IMG/VR virus record: IMGVR_UViG_3300032242_002807
Span: 1-23,683 of that record
Strand: one strand, 5' to 3'
Length of the DNA stretch: 23,683 nucleotides
Source: a virus
Of this stretch, positions 4,211 through 18,841 are shown piece by piece. The notes under the pieces are model-generated. The model saw nothing but the letters and a program-made list of their open reading frames with translations, did no database searches and was not told where the DNA came from. Position 1 is the stretch's first letter. Every line of letters begins with the position of its first letter. Made by a program: the position numbers and the translations under genes.

Positions 4211-5452
4211 ATGATAGATAATATACACGGCGATATAGCCAAACACTCTAAGACATTAATGTTTCGTGAACCGTTTTATGGATTGTTCCTAATCGGTCTG
4301 AATAAAGAATTAAGTGATACTGTCTCAACTGCTTGTGTTGCTAAAGATGGTATTAATACTAAGTTAGTTATTAGTCCTAAATTTTGGGAGACAATAGGTG
4401 ATGGTTGTAAAGTAGCTGTTTTGAAACATGAATTGTTACATATTGCATTTAAACACTTACAAATGTTTGATGAGTATGATGATAAAACATTATTGAACGT
4501 AGCTGCTGATTTAGAAATTAATCAATACATTCAAGACGAGTATAAAGATGATACTTGGGATGGTTTAGAAATTAATAAAGCACCTTGGGATGAATTAAAA
4601 TTACCTGAAAAAGCAGGTACTAGAAAGTATTATGAACTGATTAAAAAAGAAGCAGAACAAAATCCAGATGGTGATGTTGCTAAGTATTTAGATGCTGCTA
4701 AAGCTGCTAATGGTGATGGTGAACCTAGAGAAATAACTTTAGGAGACGGTACTAAAGTAACTGTTAAAGCGTCTCATGAGTTTTGGAAGCAATATGAGAA
4801 CATGGATGAAGCAGAAAAGAAATTGATGGAGAAACAAATTGAACATCAATTAAAAGATACTGCTAACCAAGTACAAAAACAAAGAGGACATATACCAGGT
4901 GAATTAAAAGAATTAATTGATAGTTTATATGTAAGTGAAGAAGCTGTTATTGATTGGAGAGCTTATTTAAGACGTTTTAATGGTATGGCTAGTAAAGTAT
5001 TTACTAAGAAAACAAGACGTAAACCAAATAAACGTTTTTATGGTAACCCAGCTCTTAAAATCAAACAAAGAAAAAATACATTAGTTGCTATTGATACTTC
5101 AGGTTCAGTTTCTAAGGATGATTTAAAGGAATTTTTAAGTGAAATTCATCACATATATAAAACAGGTACTGAAGTTACTGTTGTTGAATGTGATGCTCAA
5201 ATTGGAAGAGTTTATGAGTATAAAGGTGAAGCAAAAGAAGCTTTAGAAGTAACAGGTAGAGGAGGTACAAGTTATGAACCCGTGTTAGAATATCTATTTG
5301 AACATAAAGATAAATTTCAAAACTTAATCTACTTAACTGATGGTGAATGTTCAGTTAACACTACACCATGTAAACCTACTTTATGGGTTCACTGTTCAGG
5401 AAGAAGTATTAATGAAGATTTACCAGGTGCTAAAGTACAAATTAAATCATAA
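4211..5452 (+). CDS. Zincin-like metallopeptidase/VWA domain protein
   Basis: Two domains are readable. Residues 1-110 carry KHELLHIAFKH with HELLH at 73-77, a zinc-peptidase HExxH motif, followed by NVAADLEIN (96-104) where Asp100 could supply the third ligand; this resembles the DUF2201 putative metallopeptidase layout. Residues 288-400 form a VWA domain with a MIDAS: DTSGS (295-299), Thr353 in GRGGTSYEP and Asp377 in LTDGE. The middle (about 190-280) is helical and basic. Such proteins are regularly paired with MoxR AAA+ ATPases, and one is encoded at 6072. Together they probably form a chaperone-like complex that loads metal or remodels a protein target. Whether the peptidase site is active is unknown. 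The stop overlaps the next ATG (TAATG). Confidence 0.85.
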   Translation: MIDNIHGDIAKHSKTLMFREPFYGLFLIGLNKELSDTVSTACVAKDGINTKLVISPKFWETIGDGCKVAVLKHELLHIAFKHLQMFDEYDDKTLLNVAADLEINQYIQDEYKDDTWDGLEINKAPWDELKLPEKAGTRKYYELIKKEAEQNPDGDVAKYLDAAKAANGDGEPREITLGDGTKVTVKASHEFWKQYENMDEAEKKLMEKQIEHQLKDTANQVQKQRGHIPGELKELIDSLYVSEEAVIDWRAYLRRFNGMASKVFTKKTRRKPNKRFYGNPALKIKQRKNTLVAIDTSGSVSKDDLKEFLSEIHHIYKTGTEVTVVECDAQIGRVYEYKGEAKEALEVTGRGGTSYEPVLEYLFEHKDKFQNLIYLTDGECSVNTTPCKPTLWVHCSGRSINEDLPGAKVQIKS

Positions 5453-6071: not shown

Positions 6072-7262
6072 ATGGCAAAGACAAGTAAAAAACAAAACGC
6101 AACTGTATCATTAAATGTCCACGAATTAAAGGACTTTTTGAAACACATTATTGATAACAACCGTTATCTACAAGAAAACAATAAACCAATGGTATCAACC
6201 GAAGTTATAGGTGATAGTGGTATTGGTAAAACATCTTCTATCGTCCAATTAGCAGATGAATTAGGTTTGAATTTCGTTAAGTTAAACTTAGCTCAAATTG
6301 AGGAAATAGGTGACTTAGTAGGTTTTCCAATTCGTCAATTTGAAATGAAGGACAAAAAGACAACTGAATGGATAGATGAAAATTCAGTTGAAGATTATCG
6401 TAAGAAAGGTTATGAAGCCACAGGTTTAAATCGTATGAGTTACTGTCCACCTGAATGGATTAGTGGTAAAACAAATGGTGGTATTCTATTATTGGATGAC
6501 TGGAATAGAGCTGATATGAGATTCATTCAAGCTGTAATGGAGTTAATTGACCGTCAACAATATATTAGTTGGAAGTTACCTAAAGATTGGCATATCATAT
6601 TAACCGCTAATCCTGATAATGGAGATTATTTAGTTAACAGTATCGACAACGCTCAAAAAACGAGATTTATTAGTGTTAACTTAAAATTTGATCTTAAATG
6701 TTGGGGTAAGTGGGCTGAACAAGCTAAATTAGATGGTAGATGTATTAACTTTATGTTGATGCATCCAGAATTAGTTACTAAAGAAGTTAATAGTAGAAGT
6801 GTTAGTATGTTCTTTAATAGTATTAGTTCACTTAAATCGTTTGAGGAGTCATTACCATTAATTCAAATGATTGGAGAAGGTAGTGTTGGTAGTGAGTTTA
6901 GTACTTTATTTACTATGTTCATTAATAATAAATTGGATAAGATGATTTCACCTGAAAACATCATGAGTCAAGATGAAACATATGTTATGAACACACTTAA
7001 GAGTTTAGTTGGTAAAGATAAGAATTATAGAGCGGATATTGCGGCTACATTAGGTACAAGGGTTGCTAACTATTTAGAGTTCTATGCTAAGGATAATGCA
7101 GTTGAGAAACCATTAACTGATCGTATTAGTAAAATTGTAACAGAGAAAATATTTGCAACTGACGTTTGTTACAATATGGTTAAATCTATTTACAATAGTA
7201 ATCCAAATAAGTTTAAATTAATGATGCTAAATAAAGAATTAGTTAAGTATATAACTAAATAA
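6072..7262 (+). CDS. MoxR-type AAA+ ATPase
   Basis: A 396-residue AAA+ ATPase of the MoxR/RavA kind. Walker A is GDSGIGKT (47-54), Walker B is GILLLDD (137-143) followed by NRA (145-147), sensor 1 is TANPDN (178-183), and an AQKTRF segment around residue 198 offers the arginine finger. The N-terminal 30 residues and the helical C-terminal third (about 240-396) are less conserved. MoxR ATPases work with VWA-domain partners as ATP-driven chaperones; the VWA partner is encoded four genes... two small genes upstream at 4211. In a phage the client could be a virion protein, the host RNA polymerase or a nuclease; none is identifiable. A hairpin (7285-7316) follows the stop, so this is probably the last gene of the module. 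Confidence 0.9.
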   Translation: MAKTSKKQNATVSLNVHELKDFLKHIIDNNRYLQENNKPMVSTEVIGDSGIGKTSSIVQLADELGLNFVKLNLAQIEEIGDLVGFPIRQFEMKDKKTTEWIDENSVEDYRKKGYEATGLNRMSYCPPEWISGKTNGGILLLDDWNRADMRFIQAVMELIDRQQYISWKLPKDWHIILTANPDNGDYLVNSIDNAQKTRFISVNLKFDLKCWGKWAEQAKLDGRCINFMLMHPELVTKEVNSRSVSMFFNSISSLKSFEESLPLIQMIGEGSVGSEFSTLFTMFINNKLDKMISPENIMSQDETYVMNTLKSLVGKDKNYRADIAATLGTRVANYLEFYAKDNAVEKPLTDRISKIVTEKIFATDVCYNMVKSIYNSNPNKFKLMMLNKELVKYITK

Positions 7263-9852: not shown

Positions 9853-10215
9853 ATGGATTTTAATCAAGTTTTATTCAAAGATAAAACCTTTTCAAGCTTA
9901 CTAGAGGATATATATAAAAACGCCAATCGTAAAGAAAAGGAAATCAAAGCATTAATCGATCAACTGAAACCTATGATACAGGAACCAGGTGACGCGATGA
10001 TGCTTGTTCCTTTGTTAAAGGAATATATGGAATTAGCAATTAAGAATGATGACGCCTTAATTAAAATGGCAGGTATTGTTCAACGTGGGATGAATAGTAG
10101 TGGTGGAGATGGACAAGATAGTGGCTTGTTAAGTGATCGTGATAAAGAATTATTATTCCAAGAAATTAGTAATATTGGTCATAATGTTGAAGTAAAGCAA
10201 CTTGAAAATAAATAA
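9853..10215 (+). CDS. Small helical virion/assembly protein (120 aa)
   Basis: First gene of the late block. It is fully helical by eye, with a charged N-terminal half, a hydrophobic LVPLLKEYMELAI segment (51-63), a DALIKMAGIVQRGM helix (67-80) and a Gly/Ser/Asp-rich linker (81-91). I cannot place it in a named family. Its position before spike and hub proteins suggests a baseplate assembly factor or a minor structural protein. The TAATG overlap with the next gene indicates coupling. Confidence 0.7.
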   Translation: MDFNQVLFKDKTFSSLLEDIYKNANRKEKEIKALIDQLKPMIQEPGDAMMLVPLLKEYMELAIKNDDALIKMAGIVQRGMNSSGGDGQDSGLLSDRDKELLFQEISNIGHNVEVKQLENK

Positions 10216-11219
10216 TGGGTAGAGAGAATACTATACGAACAGGGATAAGTATACCTAACAAAATGTTAGATATGGCTTCGAATGCTTATAATTCTATAAC
10301 CCGTCATCATAAAGCTAATAGTTATGGACTTGTTAGAGCGGTTAATCCAACTACAAGACAAATTATATATTCTCCTATATCGAATAATATACCTTTAGCT
10401 AAACAAGGTATAGCTATACCTTTATCAACTAATTTTATTAAATTACCTGAACCAAATAATATTGTTCGTATTATAATAGGCCCTAACACTGATACTTCAG
10501 TTGCTAATGTTCCTGGTTCTAACACTGTATATTATGATCCAAATCCAATTGGTGTTTGGCAAACTGTAGATAATAATAAAATTAATCCTGGTCCTACTTT
10601 GGATCAAAAAGCTAAAGAAATAAGTGTAAATCCAAAAGATTTAAAACAAGTTACTTTAGGTATACCTCATAATAAACCATCTAATCTATCAACTTCAAAA
10701 GCAGGTCCTAAACCTACTCATAATTATATTATTTCAAAACCAATAGCATCAAATAATACTTTCGCTATAATAGTTGGAGGTACTCCAAGTTCTAGTTATG
10801 GTGCTACTTATATGAAAAAACAAGCTGAGACAGCTGGTATAATAAGTAATAAGAATATTATTTTTAGTGATTTTGAGAACTCAACTGAGAGTCTTATGAA
10901 TGCTGTTAGGGATAAATTTCCTGAAGCTTCGTTTACTTCATTTAGTGGATTTTCAAGAGGTGGACAAAATGCTTGTGGAGAAATAGGCAATTTTTCTTTT
11001 ATAGGATTAATTGACCCATCATTAACAATTAATGCTAATGTCACTGATAATAGTGTTTATATGATGTATAATCCTAATAATTGGGATAATAGTTACCCAC
11101 AATTAGCTGATAGACAAAGAGCTATTGGACCTAAAATGGGAGGACGAGCTACTCAACTTAATAAAATCCATTCTCAATTCCCAGTGCTATTTTTTCAAAC
11201 ATACGGAAATAAACTATAA
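10215..11219 (+). CDS. Baseplate-type protein with C-terminal serine hydrolase
   Basis: Residues 33-92 (YGLVRAV start, then GIAIPLSTNFIKLPEPNN and VRIIIGPN) resemble the OB-like segment of T4-type baseplate hub/spike proteins that end in PL-x-N-x-P-x-N and a final GP. Residues 170-334 look like an alpha/beta-hydrolase: strand FAIIVGG (183-189), nucleophile elbow G-F-S247-R-G (245-249), acid candidate D267 in GLIDPS, and histidine H319 in KIHSQFP near the end, in the order Ser-Asp-His. A virion-borne esterase, lipase or deacylase acting on the envelope or surface polysaccharide is therefore likely. The family is not recognised; the fold and triad are inferred. It lies between TAATG overlaps with both neighbours, so it belongs to the structural operon. 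Confidence 0.7.
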   Translation: MGRENTIRTGISIPNKMLDMASNAYNSITRHHKANSYGLVRAVNPTTRQIIYSPISNNIPLAKQGIAIPLSTNFIKLPEPNNIVRIIIGPNTDTSVANVPGSNTVYYDPNPIGVWQTVDNNKINPGPTLDQKAKEISVNPKDLKQVTLGIPHNKPSNLSTSKAGPKPTHNYIISKPIASNNTFAIIVGGTPSSSYGATYMKKQAETAGIISNKNIIFSDFENSTESLMNAVRDKFPEASFTSFSGFSRGGQNACGEIGNFSFIGLIDPSLTINANVTDNSVYMMYNPNNWDNSYPQLADRQRAIGPKMGGRATQLNKIHSQFPVLFFQTYGNKL

Positions 11220-13129
11220 TGGCTAACGATAAAATATATCCTATAGATATGAATTCCAAAGATATCCTCCTTCAAAATGAAGGTGGAGGTGGAATGATTA
11301 TGAATGATCAATTTATTGGCATTGTAGGCAATATGCTTCCTGACCAAAAGAAACTTCTTGATAGTCAAGAAAATATTAATGGTACTAATATACAAACAGA
11401 TAAATTTTCTAGTAATATTATAATTACTAATGCTACAAGTAATCCTATTAGTATAAATGATTTAGCAAGTAAAAATTTAGATACATTAGATCAAAGTATA
11501 AATACTAATCAAGTAGCAGCTCCTCTATCAAATGATCATTGTGGTGGTGAAGGTTTATTAAATTATGAATATCAAGAAATAGCTAAAAATTCATATAACA
11601 TCATAGAATTATATACAGCACCAGACTCTACTGATTTTTACCAACCAATTAATGACAATTATATAAAAAACGGAGTTATTTCTCCTAATTGTTTAACAAA
11701 ATATGTTAAAACTGAAGAACAATTTAAAACTTTATTATTTAGTCCTGAATCAATAGATGTACTTAAAACTTCATTAATTTTAGATGGTTCAAATTTTCCT
11801 ATTATATATAAAACTTTACAAACTGACTTACCATCTGATGTAAAATATAATTATGAGAATGTTTTTGTACATGATAAAACTAATAAACTTAATCATAAAT
11901 CAATATATCTGAATTATGATTTTAAAAATAATATCACAGGTCAAACTGAAAATAGAAGCATACTTGATATACAAACACTCCCATCAGGATTAAGATCATT
12001 AGTGTTTGGAACAGTTCAAACTAGTTGGGAAAACACTCATTATGTAGAAGGAATACTAGTAGCAATAGGTCCTGACTATTTAAATTCTTTACCAGGTATA
12101 GGTATAAAAAAAGATGAGTATGGTAGTTTACATTTTCGTGACAAAAACCAAAACTACCTCTTCTATAAATTTCGTTATATATATTTTGAAATATTAAGTA
12201 TTTATAATTCTAATAAAACAAAATTTTTAACTACATTAGCTAATGTATATAAAGAAGCTGTTAAATCACACTTTTTTTCAATTAGTGAGACTACTACTAA
12301 TAAAATCAGAATACAACAACAAATATTAGGTATTGATACTTCTTTAGCAATAGCATTAAAATACATTGATTGTCCTAATGAGTATGAAATAAACAATGAT
12401 TTATCCACAACAAAATCATCTGAAGCTCCAGCTCCTCCTTCAATCACTCCTACAGTTACGCCCCCAGCATCATCAACATTAATTCCTCCCCAAACTAAAG
12501 CTGAGGAAGAAGAAGGTATTTATGAGGCTGAATTTTTACCCGCAACTGAAAATACTACTCAAGTACTTACAGGAGGAAATGAGAACGATGAGGAAGATAC
12601 TAAAAAAATACTTACATATATAGCGCAGGGTAGAATAACAATATCAAAGATTAAAACTGATGGTAGTAATACTTCTAAAAAATATAATTTACAAACAGCT
12701 GACTTAACTGAGATTTCAAAATATGTTAGTTTCGCAGATACAGTTCAAAAAGATTGGAATAATGGAATCATTAATCCTAATTTAATAAAAGATATTGCTT
12801 CCGCTTGCAAAACAGCAGGTGTAAATTGTGTTATCACAACAGCTAAAACAGGACATAGTACAACAACAACATCAGGAAATATTAGTAGACATACAAATGG
12901 TACAGGAGTTGATATTGCTTTTGTGAATGGAATTTCTTCTATTAATGCTACTAATATTAATAATATTGACATTAACTTTAAAACAGCTGGAGATAAACTA
13001 AAAAATGCATTAGTACAAATGGGATATAAATGGAACACGGAAAAGGGAAATGATAAAGCAGTATTATGGTTAACTACAACAGGCGGTAATCATTATAATC
13101 ATCTACATGTTAGTAATAGAATACAATAA
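11219..13129 (+). CDS. Tail protein with C-terminal M15 peptidase domain
   Basis: A 636-residue protein. The first 390 residues are beta-rich and structural, with no family I can name. Residues about 395-450 are a Pro/Thr/Ser/Glu-rich linker. Residues 480-636 are a zinc D-Ala-D-Ala carboxypeptidase/L-Ala-D-Glu endopeptidase domain of the M15 type: SRHTNGTGVDIAF gives H557 and D564, and GGNHYNHLHVS gives H628 or H630 as third ligand. The enzyme would cut peptide stems of peptidoglycan, and attachment to a tail protein suggests local wall digestion during DNA entry, comparable in role to the lysozyme domain of T4 gp5. The TAATG start couples it to the preceding hydrolase-bearing gene. Confidence 0.85.
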   Translation: MANDKIYPIDMNSKDILLQNEGGGGMIMNDQFIGIVGNMLPDQKKLLDSQENINGTNIQTDKFSSNIIITNATSNPISINDLASKNLDTLDQSINTNQVAAPLSNDHCGGEGLLNYEYQEIAKNSYNIIELYTAPDSTDFYQPINDNYIKNGVISPNCLTKYVKTEEQFKTLLFSPESIDVLKTSLILDGSNFPIIYKTLQTDLPSDVKYNYENVFVHDKTNKLNHKSIYLNYDFKNNITGQTENRSILDIQTLPSGLRSLVFGTVQTSWENTHYVEGILVAIGPDYLNSLPGIGIKKDEYGSLHFRDKNQNYLFYKFRYIYFEILSIYNSNKTKFLTTLANVYKEAVKSHFFSISETTTNKIRIQQQILGIDTSLAIALKYIDCPNEYEINNDLSTTKSSEAPAPPSITPTVTPPASSTLIPPQTKAEEEEGIYEAEFLPATENTTQVLTGGNENDEEDTKKILTYIAQGRITISKIKTDGSNTSKKYNLQTADLTEISKYVSFADTVQKDWNNGIINPNLIKDIASACKTAGVNCVITTAKTGHSTTTTSGNISRHTNGTGVDIAFVNGISSINATNINNIDINFKTAGDKLKNALVQMGYKWNTEKGNDKAVLWLTTTGGNHYNHLHVSNRIQ

Positions 13130-14578: not shown

Positions 14579-15043
14579 ATGAAAGCGGATACATTTGTAA
14601 AATTATTAAGAAAAGTTATACGTGAAGAAATTCAAGCTGTCGTTAGGGAAGAGCTAGGATTATTACTTGAGGCGCCTGCGCCTAAATCGGTAATGGCAGA
14701 GTCCAAAAAACCGGTTGTTAAAAATTCCATGGTCGAATCAATAAGACCTGCCAAACCAACACAGCCATCAAAACCTATGAACTTCGCTAGTAATAACATA
14801 TTAAATGATATATTAAACGAAACAGCGAATGCTGGTGAGTGGAGAACAGTAGCTGATATGAAAGCTGAAAACGCTATAGGCTTTAGTGGAAACACATACG
14901 GAAACGATCCAATAGTTGTAGAAAGTGTAGACCAAATGTTAGCTAATACAAGACCAGCAGGAGATATTAACGCTGTTAAAATTGATGTTGTACCTGATTT
15001 TACTAACTTAATGGCTAAAATGAAACAAGAAGGACAAATATAA
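14579..15043 (+). CDS. Virion-module protein with helical N-terminus (154 aa)
   Basis: Residues 3-32 form one long amphipathic charged helix (FVKLLRKVIREEIQAVVREE). Residues 33-70 are a Pro/Lys/Ser-rich disordered linker, and residues 71-154 contain short conserved-looking pieces (WRTVADMKAENAIGF, PDFTNLMAKM). No enzyme motif is visible. The layout of helix, linker and short C-terminal peptides resembles assembly connectors or scaffolding-like proteins. It is coupled by TAATG to the gp25-like gene, so a role in baseplate assembly is plausible. Confidence 0.65.
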   Translation: MKADTFVKLLRKVIREEIQAVVREELGLLLEAPAPKSVMAESKKPVVKNSMVESIRPAKPTQPSKPMNFASNNILNDILNETANAGEWRTVADMKAENAIGFSGNTYGNDPIVVESVDQMLANTRPAGDINAVKIDVVPDFTNLMAKMKQEGQI

Positions 15044-15465
15044 TGTTAAAAAGACCAACATATACCTTAAATCCACAAGACATCGGACAAAAACGAGGTA
15101 TTGGGATTAGTGTTCTTTTTAATAATGGCAATAATGTTTTTAATCAAACATTCACTACTAAAGAACAAGTTAAATCTAATTTAATTAATTATATATTAAC
15201 TAATAAAGGTGAACGTCTTTTTAATCCTACATTTGGAGGTAATTTAAGAGCATCATTATTTAACCCAGACTCATCCTTTGATAGTGTAGTAGCGTCATTA
15301 GAACAAGAAATATATGCTTATGTACCAAATATTATTATTCGTAACATAGCAATAAAAAAATATTCCGATGAAAATTTAGTAAATATAATACTAGATTATT
15401 CAATAAATAACCAAAATGATAATTTAGTAATAAATGTATCAACAAATGATTTAACTAAACAATAA
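15043..15465 (+). CDS. gp25-like baseplate wedge protein
   Basis: The segment TNKGERLFNPTFGGNLRASL (53-72) is the signature of the gp25/GpW lysozyme-like baseplate wedge family, in which a T-x-x-GER-x-x-x-P-x-FG motif is followed by a helix and strands. At 140 residues it is close to T4 gp25 (132). The protein is a structural part of the inner wedge, not an active enzyme in tails of this type. It directly precedes the gp6/J-like gene with a TAATG overlap, the same order as W-J in P2, which supports both calls. Confidence 0.9.
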   Translation: MLKRPTYTLNPQDIGQKRGIGISVLFNNGNNVFNQTFTTKEQVKSNLINYILTNKGERLFNPTFGGNLRASLFNPDSSFDSVVASLEQEIYAYVPNIIIRNIAIKKYSDENLVNIILDYSINNQNDNLVINVSTNDLTKQ

Positions 15466-17336
15466 TGGCAAACGTACCTGATATAAAATATTTTGATAAA
15501 GACTTTACCACGTTAAAGCAGGATTTAATTAACTATGCTAGAACATACTTTCAGAATAACTATATGGACTTTAGTCCATCTGCTCCTGGTAATATGTTTA
15601 TGGAAATGGCCGCTTATGTAGGTGATATATTATCATTTTACACTGATACTCAACTACAAGAGACATTATTATTATATGCTCAAGAAAGAAAAAATATAAT
15701 TGCTTTAGCATATGCTTTAGGTTATAGACCTAAAATAACTTCAACATCATCAGTGACATTAGATATATTTCAATTAATACCTTCTGATGGTGCTCCTTAT
15801 TATAATCCTGATTTTAGATATGCTGCTACAGTAAATAAAAATACTGTAGTTAAATCAAATTCAAACCCAACAATAACTTTTATTACTCAGGATTCTATTG
15901 ACTTTAAATTCTCATCTTCTTATAACCCAACAGATGTTAGTATATACCAATACTATACTTCTACAACTAATCCACAATATTATCTACTTAAAAAACAAGT
16001 AGAAGCAATATCAGGACAAATTAAAACTACTACTTTCTCATTTGGTAATCCAGTACAATTTCCAACTGTTACTATTAATGATAAAAATATTATTGAAGTA
16101 ATTAGTATAGTTGATAGTGAAAACAATACATGGTATGAAGTACCTTATTTAGCTCAAGATACAGTATTTGATGAATCTTTAAATTTACCTACATTTGAAC
16201 CTAATCATAGTGGTGATAATAGTGCTCGTTTTTTATTACGTTTAAAAAAGGTTCAAAAACGTTTTACAACACGATTTAACGATGATAGTAATTTAGTATT
16301 AGAGTTTGGTAGCGGCGTTACTTCAGTTCCTGATGAGACAATTATACCAAATCCTGATAATGTTGGTTTAGGCTTAGTTGATGGTATAAGTAAATTAACT
16401 ATGGCTTATGACCCATCAAATTTCCAATACACAAATGAGTATGGTATTGCTCCCGCAAACACTACTTTAACAGTGACTTACTTAGTAGGTGGAGGTATTA
16501 ATACAAACTTACCATCAGATGATATCAATTTAAATGATGTTGTTACTGTTAATATTAATGATTATAATTTAGATCCTTCAATAGTTAACATTTCTAAAGG
16601 ATCAGTTAGATTTAATAATCCCGGTCCTTCATCTGGAGGTGGACCTGGTGAAAGTACAGAGCAAATTCGTTTACAAGCTTTAGCTAATTTCCCAACCCAA
16701 AATAGAAATGTAACTAAGGCTGACTATTTAGTTCGTACTTTATCACTACCATCAAAATATGGTTATTTAAGCAAGGCTTATGTAGCGCAAGATTATTTAG
16801 TAGCGAATGATTCAGACAAACAAAATTTTATTAATAGTAATCCATTAGCAATTTCTGTTTATGTTCTATCAACAAATATAAATGGTAGATTAACTACAGC
16901 GAGTAATATTGTAAAACAAAATTTAAAAACATACTTATCCTATGAAAAAATGATGAGTGATGCTATATTAATTAAGGATGCTTATTATGCTAATATTAAA
17001 GTTAACTTCGATATTTCAGTATTACCAGCATATAACTCACAAGATGTTTTAACTAAATGTATTGACGGATTAAAGGATTATTTTAATATATCTAAATGGC
17101 AAATAAACCAACCTATTATATACTCAGACATTTATAACTTGATTGGCTCTATTAAAGGTGTTCAATCAGTAATTAAAGTAAATATTAAAAACTTAACTGG
17201 AGGTAATTACTCTCCATATTCTTATGATATATCAGCTGCTACTAAACAAGGAGTTGTTTATCCATCTTTAGACCCAATGATATTTGAAGTAAGATATCCT
17301 AATACAGATATTTATGGTCGTATTGTAACTTATTAA
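15465..17336 (+). CDS. gp6/J-like baseplate wedge protein
   Basis: A 623-residue protein close in size to T4 gp6 (660). The N-terminal helix contains SAPGNMFMEMAAYVGDIL (39-56) and YTDTQLQETLL; the middle has NNTWYEVPYLAQDTVFDE (about 220-237) and LVLEFGSGV; GGGPGEST followed by EQIRLQALANFP (about 391-410) and NVTKADYLVR (about 414-423) mark the baseplate J core domain. It dimerises and links wedges of the contractile baseplate in T4 and P2. It is coupled to the gp25-like gene upstream. The gene for the Ntn-hydrolase-like protein follows after two bases. Confidence 0.92.
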   Translation: MANVPDIKYFDKDFTTLKQDLINYARTYFQNNYMDFSPSAPGNMFMEMAAYVGDILSFYTDTQLQETLLLYAQERKNIIALAYALGYRPKITSTSSVTLDIFQLIPSDGAPYYNPDFRYAATVNKNTVVKSNSNPTITFITQDSIDFKFSSSYNPTDVSIYQYYTSTTNPQYYLLKKQVEAISGQIKTTTFSFGNPVQFPTVTINDKNIIEVISIVDSENNTWYEVPYLAQDTVFDESLNLPTFEPNHSGDNSARFLLRLKKVQKRFTTRFNDDSNLVLEFGSGVTSVPDETIIPNPDNVGLGLVDGISKLTMAYDPSNFQYTNEYGIAPANTTLTVTYLVGGGINTNLPSDDINLNDVVTVNINDYNLDPSIVNISKGSVRFNNPGPSSGGGPGESTEQIRLQALANFPTQNRNVTKADYLVRTLSLPSKYGYLSKAYVAQDYLVANDSDKQNFINSNPLAISVYVLSTNINGRLTTASNIVKQNLKTYLSYEKMMSDAILIKDAYYANIKVNFDISVLPAYNSQDVLTKCIDGLKDYFNISKWQINQPIIYSDIYNLIGSIKGVQSVIKVNIKNLTGGNYSPYSYDISAATKQGVVYPSLDPMIFEVRYPNTDIYGRIVTY

Positions 17337-17338
17337 TT

Positions 17339-18238
17339 ATGAAATTATTAAATATCCTTAAAAGTTTACTTAATGAATGCACTGTGACCGGTGTTAGATT
17401 AAGTAATGGTGTGGTATTAGCTAAAAATAGAGATAGAGGATATACAGCTGAAGTAGAAGTGGTACATGAAATTTTAGATAATGTAGAAATGGTTTATTGG
17501 CATGATATTGACACTGATTGGTCTGAAGGTATGAATGAATTTGGTATTGGTATTGTTAATTCATCTTTAATGGTTCATGATGATGAAAAAGAAGGTGATA
17601 AAGTTGAGAAAAAAAGAGACGAAAAACGTAAAAATCCAGAATTAGAAGATAAAAGAAAAGAACCTAAACACGCGAGTGATGGTGCTAAAATTAGACAAGT
17701 GTTATGTCAAAATAATATTAGAGACGCAGTTAAAGTTTTAGTTTCATCAAAAGGAGATGGAAGCGCTGAAGTTAACGGTGTTACTGGTCAATCTATTATT
17801 AGTGATGGAAAAGAAATATATGTTATTGAACATACAAGTATTGACGCTCCTGTTATTAGAAAATTAAAAGAAGATAAAAAAGTAATAGTGAGAACCAATC
17901 ATGGTATCTACCATAAAGATGTAGGCTATCAATCAGGTATAAAAAAAGATTCTACTCATAGTAGAATGAATTTAGCGAAAGAACACTTACAAGATGCTGA
18001 AACAGATCAAGATGTTTTAGACATTTTAAAAAAACAATATAAAGAAAATACATTCTTGAATCCATATAGAAAAACAAATAAATATCACATGCAGACCACA
18101 GGTCAAATTATGATGAATTTAAAGAAAAAAGAAGTCACTATTCGTATGGATAAAGAACATGGTGAATTTGAAGGTGTAGAAACATTATTACCTAAAGATT
18201 ATGAAGCCAAAATAAAAATTAAAATTGAAAAATCTTAA
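17339..18238 (+). CDS. Ntn-hydrolase-like protein (linear amide C-N hydrolase type)
   Basis: Residues 14-33 (C14-TVTGVRLSNGVVLAKNRDR) match the N-terminal nucleophile region of Ntn hydrolases of the acyltransferase/dipeptidase type (C45, C59, C69), where a Cys-Thr begins the mature enzyme and NxD follows a strand turn. Further support comes from GMNEFGIGIVNSSL (64-77), DGKEIYVIE (156-164), RTNHG (185-189), S208-R209 and QIMMNL (256-261). The 13-residue leader before Cys14 would be removed by autocleavage. Residues 81-112 are a highly charged Lys/Glu insert. These enzymes cleave linear amides such as acyl-amino bonds; the target here is unknown. Its place between baseplate genes is unusual and suggests a virion or lysis role. 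Confidence 0.75.
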   Translation: MKLLNILKSLLNECTVTGVRLSNGVVLAKNRDRGYTAEVEVVHEILDNVEMVYWHDIDTDWSEGMNEFGIGIVNSSLMVHDDEKEGDKVEKKRDEKRKNPELEDKRKEPKHASDGAKIRQVLCQNNIRDAVKVLVSSKGDGSAEVNGVTGQSIISDGKEIYVIEHTSIDAPVIRKLKEDKKVIVRTNHGIYHKDVGYQSGIKKDSTHSRMNLAKEHLQDAETDQDVLDILKKQYKENTFLNPYRKTNKYHMQTTGQIMMNLKKKEVTIRMDKEHGEFEGVETLLPKDYEAKIKIKIEKS

Positions 18239-18241
18239 TAT

Positions 18242-18841
18242 ATGAATTTAGACAAATTAAAAGGACATATTCCTGATAGTGTTATTACCCAAATTCCAGG
18301 AATTCAAGATAAATTTGAAATCAACACTCCATTACGTTTAGCTCATTTCTTAGCTCAATGCGGACATGAGTCAGGTGGATTTAGATTAACTAAAGAAAAT
18401 TTAAATTACAGTGCTAAAGGATTACAAGGTATTTTCAAAAAATATTTTCCAGATGCTACTAAAGCTACTTTATACGAACGTAAACCTGAAAAAATTGCTA
18501 ATTTAGTTTATGCAAATAGAATGGGTAATGGTCCTGAAGCAAGTGGTGATGGTGCAAAATATTGTGGACGTGGTTTTATTCAATTAACTGGTAAAACTAA
18601 CTACCAAGCATTTTTTAAATCAATTGGCGCGGATATTAATACTGACCCAACATTAGTTGCAACTCAATACCCATTAGCATCAGCTGCGTGGTTCTTTAAT
18701 AAGAATGGTTTACATAAAATAGCTGATGGTGGAGCAACAGATGCTGTTGTTACTTCTATTACTAAACGTGTTAATGGTGGTACAATTGGTTTACCTGATC
18801 GTATTAAACATTTTAACGAGTATTATCACTTGTTGGCTTAA
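18242..18841 (+). CDS. GH19-type lysin (chitinase/muramidase fold)
   Basis: A 199-residue glycoside hydrolase family 19-like protein. Catalytic E43 lies in AHFLAQCGHESGGF (34-47), the second acid candidate E52 in KENLNYSA, and GRGFIQLTGKTNY (109-121) is the typical substrate-cleft signature; TKRVNGG near residue 175 completes the fold. Phage members cut peptidoglycan glycan chains. There is no signal peptide or membrane segment, so it is either a holin-dependent endolysin or a tail-associated muramidase; its place among baseplate genes allows both. Size fits a single-domain enzyme with no wall-binding module. A late promoter candidate starts one base after the stop. Confidence 0.9.
   Translation: MNLDKLKGHIPDSVITQIPGIQDKFEINTPLRLAHFLAQCGHESGGFRLTKENLNYSAKGLQGIFKKYFPDATKATLYERKPEKIANLVYANRMGNGPEASGDGAKYCGRGFIQLTGKTNYQAFFKSIGADINTDPTLVATQYPLASAAWFFNKNGLHKIADGGATDAVVTSITKRVNGGTIGLPDRIKHFNEYYHLLA

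Follow-up and report, generated by a model that had tools for sequence, protein, structure and literature searches.

What is the role of an amide hydrolase encoded among the baseplate genes of a phage? The question is raised by a virus record of 23,683 bases, apparently a fragment, referred to here as the window. The ORF concerned (17339..18238, plus strand; ATG start, 299 aa, stop included) is assigned as an Ntn hydrolase precursor on the basis of Pfam AAT, an AlphaFold2 model and fold matches. It starts 2 bases after the end, at 17336, of a gp6-like baseplate wedge gene (15465..17336, same strand; PHROG 219 baseplate wedge subunit, E 4.4e-15). A gp25-like baseplate wedge gene lies upstream of the latter (15043..15465, plus strand; PHROG 261 and 43 baseplate wedge subunit), and a GH19-type endolysin gene (18242..18841, same strand; Pfam GH19 8.5e-9, PHROG endolysin 6.4e-65) begins 3 bases past the end of the ORF. 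The reading frame and the motifs cited in the original prediction (Cys14, NRDR, GMNEFGIGIVNS, RTNHG and a Ser/Arg pair) are all present.

Other genes of the window were recorded in passing. Among the baseplate genes, a 334-aa protein (10215-11216) carries a GFSRGG serine-hydrolase-like motif and gave no Pfam match. The 636-aa protein encoded at 11219-13126 has a C-terminus (SRHTNGTGVDIAF...NHLHVS) which by eye resembles M15-type D,D-carboxypeptidases, and gave no Pfam or PHROG match. A VWA/metallopeptidase (DUF2201) protein (4211-5449) is paired with what looks by eye like a MoxR-like AAA ATPase (6072-7259).

The assignment itself was addressed by structure prediction. The AlphaFold2 model, computed with 46 viral homologs as input, has a pLDDT of 89 and a pTM of 0.88. 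Residues 1-11 are disordered and the first strand begins at Cys14. The modelled fold is the alpha-beta-beta-alpha Ntn fold, and alignments of about 200-225 residues to several Ntn hydrolases reach Z of 19-21 (CV2077, 21.0; NAAA, 20.4; AAT, 19.6 and 19.1; acid ceramidase, 19.5). Foldseek and VIA-align matches comprised isopenicillin-N acyltransferase, CV2077, NAAA, acid ceramidase, bile salt hydrolases and C69 dipeptidases, and two more viral proteins matched by fold in BFVD. Alignments to enzymes in their mature form begin at Cys14 of the model and at the known nucleophile of the partner; as judged by chain ranges, Cys14 is aligned with NAAA Cys126, AAT Cys103, acid ceramidase Cys143 and BSH Cys2. 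Sequence comparison gave a marginal Pfam AAT match (PF03417; 24.5 bits against a gathering cutoff of 23.2, E 2.6e-5), which covers residues 117-270 and leaves Cys14 outside, and nothing usable in PDB sequence searches. The choloylglycine hydrolase/penicillin V acylase (C59) profile did not appear among the hmmscan results, which extended to E of 1; folds of this group match the model at Z of about 16-18. The proposed Ntn-hydrolase fold is thus borne out by the model, and as far as prediction can go the fold is settled.

Conservation among relatives points the same way. Strictly invariant across 47 homologs are Cys14 (17378..17380), N30, R31, D32 and R33 (17426..17437), E63, G64, M65 and N66, R185, N187, H188 and G189, and the pair S205 and R209 (17951..17965), all encoded on the plus strand. 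E63 to N66 belong to EGMNEFGIGIVNS (residues 63-75; 17525..17563), in which G69 and N74 are also invariant and which includes the GMNEFGIGIVNS motif (residues 64-75); R185 to G189 form RTNHG (17891..17905), where T186 is nearly invariant. The majority of residues in the cited motifs are conserved across the same 47 homologs. Cys14, which had been put forward as the catalytic residue, is in addition invariant in 67/67 sequences with a leader ending in Glu, and coincides with the nucleophile of the structural matches. It is the predicted N-terminal nucleophile of the mature enzyme. By analogy with the clan, N30-R31-D32-R33, N66, N187 and R209 are natural candidates for the remaining catalytic residues, Asn187 being a candidate oxyanion-hole residue. 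The charged insert described as unusual (residues 81-112; 17579..17674) is real. It is nevertheless lineage-specific, being missing or short in the Chryseobacterium phages MA9V-1 and MA9V-2 and in L006, and is partly of low confidence in the model (residues 104-109 below pLDDT 50).

Ntn hydrolases require the free alpha-amino group of their nucleophile, and Cys14 is preceded by a leader of 13 residues (MKLLNILKSLLNE; 17339..17377), disordered in the model and located at the same place as the hypervariable leaders of relatives. To characterise this region, the residues before the nucleophile were extracted from all loci and a tree of 79 non-redundant sequences was built. Three classes were found: 67 sequences have Glu in front of the nucleophile, 9 have Met immediately in front of it and 3 have Ala. 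Within the first class, P1 is Glu in 67/67, a position fixed by the class definition, although Glu is also found in 67/70 sequences having any leader. At P3, 63/67 sequences have Leu or Ile and the other four have Val (twice), Phe and Met. Farther from the junction the leader shows almost no preference (3.2-3.8 bits), and the background composition of leaders is 7.8% Glu and 25% Leu+Ile. These rows are related, and the counts do not represent independent events. Leader length among relatives varies from 4 to >300 residues and the sequence is otherwise hypervariable; the junction motif is retained after 4 residues (MINE/C, the slash marking the junction), after 13-30 residues or after an extension of up to about 340 (L051). 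Because the leaders diverge so strongly in length and sequence, common descent by itself does not account for the constancy of P1 and P3. The junction in the window reads LNE/C, and the MA9V enzyme (WIC41446.1) carries the leader MTSANNNEFLNE followed by CVIAAK.

Several architectures depart from the short leader. L051 (4993-6840) encodes a 616-aa fusion, in which a basic, Gly/Lys-rich N-terminal region with a weak DUF5872 match, below cutoff, is joined to the Ntn hydrolase through KLNE-Cys. Shorter N-terminal extensions occur in L053, L059, L062 and L079, the last of which begins with a leader-like MKFKKIISNLQEE and has a second junction, SLDE/C. In L135/L137 (G025) and L191, the Ntn domain is part of very large proteins with Ala directly before the nucleophile; it is near the N-terminus in L137 and after a domain resembling ART/KptA by eye in L191, and in all of them is followed by a region that looks by eye like a type IB topoisomerase. 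PF03420 and PF04586 were searched for in this Ala-Cys group (L130, L135/L137, L191) and neither was found.

Met-Cys forms arise at 4-5 separate points of the tree. Since some relatives begin with Met-Cys and others carry Ala at the position preceding the nucleophile, selection appears to act on a free N-terminal Cys, and the existence of the Met-Cys forms strongly implies that in the leader-bearing proteins the nucleophile would be freed as the actual N-terminus by processing. The suggestion that a short leader must be removed before Cys14 is thus supported by the disorder of residues 1-11, the junction motif and the invariant cysteine.

Which protease would make this cut? The main rival to the explanation we favour is that the leader is an ordinary Ntn propeptide, removed by the enzyme itself, with Glu and Leu/Ile needed for self-cleavage and the enzyme remaining cytoplasmic in the producing cell. 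The closest structural relatives, whose matched structures include precursors of AAT, NAAA and acid ceramidase, as a rule cleave themselves, some amidophosphoribosyltransferase propeptides likewise end in Glu before Cys, and the motif persists both after a 4-residue leader and after extensions of >300 residues. We nevertheless consider self-cleavage rather unlikely. The leader is disordered in the model instead of being docked in the active site, and three further observations, developed below, stand against it: the P3 preference is that of gp21, the same site occurs in capsid proteins of the same phages and the same leader is found on unrelated proteins without an Ntn domain.

T4-type prohead proteases cleave after Glu, and the [L/I]-x-Glu with which the leaders end is the motif at which one of them, gp21, cuts. 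In the window, the putative site is L-N-E (P3-P2-P1; 17369..17377, plus strand), with the cut predicted after Glu13 from the P1 and P3 statistics of relatives. In T4, the gp21 sites of Alt are ITE-6 and LTE-619 (PMC5694885). The leaders of T4 internal proteins target the core and are removed by gp21 (PMC9958956), and mutations in the ten-residue leader of IPIII showed the role of residues 8 and 10 in processing (PMC9026906); these residues are P3 and P1. Major capsid proteins of the same phages as the Ntn hydrolases carry comparable sites (LINE/A, LLNE/S, LISE/A, LLDE/A and LLKE/G), located where the T4 gp23 cut is expected, this equivalence of position being our reading by analogy with T4.

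The protease itself was searched for with PF03420 (gp21), which was found in 14/20, 9/20 and 4/20 of the relative-bearing contigs searched, many of them fragments, and in 0/14 control genomes. Positives include both Chryseobacterium phages, in one of which, MA9V-1, the authors had named a prohead core protease and examined the virion proteins by SDS-PAGE (PMC10537231), as well as the L012 contig, which encodes an enzyme with 75% identity to that of the window. No gp21 was seen in the 23.7 kb window contig, nor was a PF03420 match obtained in G004 and G009, contigs of over 200 kb with Glu-leaders, which are perhaps incomplete. The gp21-type protease of MA9V-1 (OR050627.1, 126501-130544) forms part of a far longer polypeptide than in T4, of about 1,350 aa. 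A strict correspondence between leader type and the presence of gp21 was also considered and was dropped, given that G020 and G021 each combine a Met-Cys form and gp21 in one phage.

Leaders of this kind extend beyond the Ntn hydrolases. In the jumbo phage G007, the enzyme gene (MNLKDSIKNILRE; start MNLKDSIKNILREH...) is clustered with seven genes sharing its leader, whose products begin with MNLQESIRRILREE / MNLQESIRRILRE or nearly so. Once their first 25 residues were removed, the eight proteins showed no mutual similarity (BLASTP, 1e-3). A leader common to unrelated proteins fits a targeting sequence and is difficult to reconcile with an intramolecular propeptide. Leaders resembling capsid-targeting sequences (CTS) were counted in 32/295 proteins of G003, also a jumbo phage, and 36/285 of G007, about a tenth, compared with 1-2% for the same patterns at other offsets and 3/332 proteins in G025, which is without PF03420; these strict patterns were written after viewing the sequences, and the enrichment is descriptive. 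A looser criterion, counting every [L/I]-x-E between residues 4 and 25, showed only a weak excess (37%, against about 26%). When 20 neighbours bearing leaders were scanned with Pfam, hardly any function could be assigned.

Long runs of small, mostly unannotated genes are found at L250:3916-11473 (G007) and at L241 5019-19385 and L242 (G003), with the recurring leaders MNLQESIRRILREE, MKRIVRLTESDLxRIVRRVIxE and MKIIITESQ.... They are probably a large repertoire of capsid cargo. A GH19 and peptidoglycan-binding enzyme of G007 (L250:14481-15479) starts with a leader-like MKIVITESQFKKLINE, which suggests a packaged lysozyme.

The baseplate setting of the window could instead point to a tail- or baseplate-associated enzyme acting on the host envelope at entry, as the adjacent gp6 and GH19 endolysin genes might indicate. 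Relatives were collected in two alignment-guided scans of viral contigs, which returned 229 and 435 sequences, so that at least 435 exist. The link to the baseplate operon, as originally noted, does not hold generally: of 78 non-redundant loci, about 12 have gp25 or gp6 within 6 kb and, in the baseplate-linked loci other than the window, the gene is at the opposite end of the operon. GH19 is within about 6 kb in 9 loci, the window and 8 others. A capsid protein and/or gp21 is nearby in 4 of the 78. Loci without baseplate genes are beside head genes or in unrelated blocks, and the close relatives L004 and L012 have neither a baseplate nor a head-gene setting. Most loci, these two included, are therefore outside the baseplate operon; in addition, a leader ending in [L/I]-x-E suits head maturation and suggests head packaging and not a tail role, and the Met-Cys forms have no targeting signal. 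A tail enzyme is, in our opinion, quite improbable.

Still less probable, to the point of being very doubtful, is a role in morphogenesis, in which the hydrolase would process or crosslink virion proteins within the head. The late-gene context of the window would agree with it, as would a place among the head core proteins, where a leader that serves for targeting should bring it. Met-Cys forms, however, would be active in the cytoplasm, and small acyl amides are the substrates of the enzymes nearest in fold, even if a shared fold does not establish the substrate. The patchy genomic position also favours an accessory gene, one that across these loci resides among late genes.

As for the origin of the gene, two scans of 84,980 prokaryote genomes, keyed on short conserved peptides that distant homologs could escape, found no relative, and neither did a plasmid search; a cellular origin was rejected on these grounds. 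Among 50,697 phage records, MA9V-1 and MA9V-2 are the only isolates with the gene, their copies being annotated as hypothetical protein.

From the computed fold, the junction, the co-occurrence of gp21 and capsid sites, and the sharing of leaders, we infer cleavage, packaging, injection and a host target. We consider it probable that the enzyme is a capsid-cargo zymogen, whose leader is cut by gp21 at head maturation and which is injected to hydrolyse an amide of the host. The enzyme would be synthesized late, alongside the virion genes, as an inactive precursor in which the leader blocks the alpha-amino group of Cys14 in the producing cell. This leader (MKLLNILKSLLNE), a putative T4-style capsid-targeting propeptide, would bring it into the prohead core, where cleavage by the gp21-type protease after Glu13 would both release the cargo and expose Cys14 as the N-terminus. 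The active enzyme would then be ejected from the head with the DNA into the next host and, at an early stage of infection, cleave an amide bond in one of its molecules. A small N-acyl amide (a lipid, signal or defence molecule) is a first guess for the substrate, because of the fold kinship with NAAA, ceramidase and acylases. Some leaders have just 4 residues (MINE/C), short for a signal, which counts against a targeting role; the T4 Alt leader has only 6 (PMC5694885). The broader proposal, that head maturation gates the zymogen (off in the producing cell, on only in the virion and the next host) and that it is one of dozens of leader-tagged cargo proteins in these jumbo phages, is in our view slightly on the probable side.

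The Met-Cys forms add two qualifications to this explanation. Their maturation by methionine aminopeptidase is expected in the cytoplasm, and they therefore suggest a target in the cell and not in the virion. Because two of them occur in gp21 phages (G020 and G021), packaging would not be universal, and some phages seem to have switched from an injected to a newly made enzyme, or the reverse.

If the packaging explanation is true, an amidohydrolase would act in the first minutes of infection, and a simple criterion, either [L/I]-x-E immediately preceding a nucleophile or a leader common to several proteins, could identify injected effectors among the many uncharacterised proteins of large phages. 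The isolates MA9V-1 and MA9V-2 carry the gene, making the idea directly testable.

The enzyme is a previously undescribed phage member of an amide-bond-cutting family. With C45/AAT (isopenicillin-N acyltransferase) it shares the Ntn fold and a nucleophilic Cys at the precursor junction, and it differs by an identity of about 15%, its presence in viral contigs only and a short leader with a prohead-protease motif. NAAA and acid ceramidase, which are lysosomal and have a long, self-cleaved pro-subunit, are alike in fold and nucleophile position, whereas no sequence relation was detectable in PDB sequence searches. Phage head proteases trim scaffolds and internal proteins; we know of none that creates an active site and, to our knowledge, the gp21 cut in T4 does not create a catalytic residue. 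Our literature search found no paper on a phage Ntn hydrolase in the head. Polyvalent or head-packaged effectors are enzymes likewise proposed to be packaged in heads and injected (PMC5512222, PMC9503650); term searches of these two papers and of a jumbo-phage survey (PMC7824862) returned no Ntn hydrolase. The nearest parallel is with T4 IPI-III and Alt, which also have a short N-terminal leader ending in [L/I]-x-E in a phage that encodes gp21 (PMC5694885, PMC9958956, PMC9026906), and of which IPI, once injected, inhibits a nuclease of the host (PMC9958956). In contrast to these proteins, the putative cut in the phage Ntn hydrolase would fall exactly before the nucleophile.
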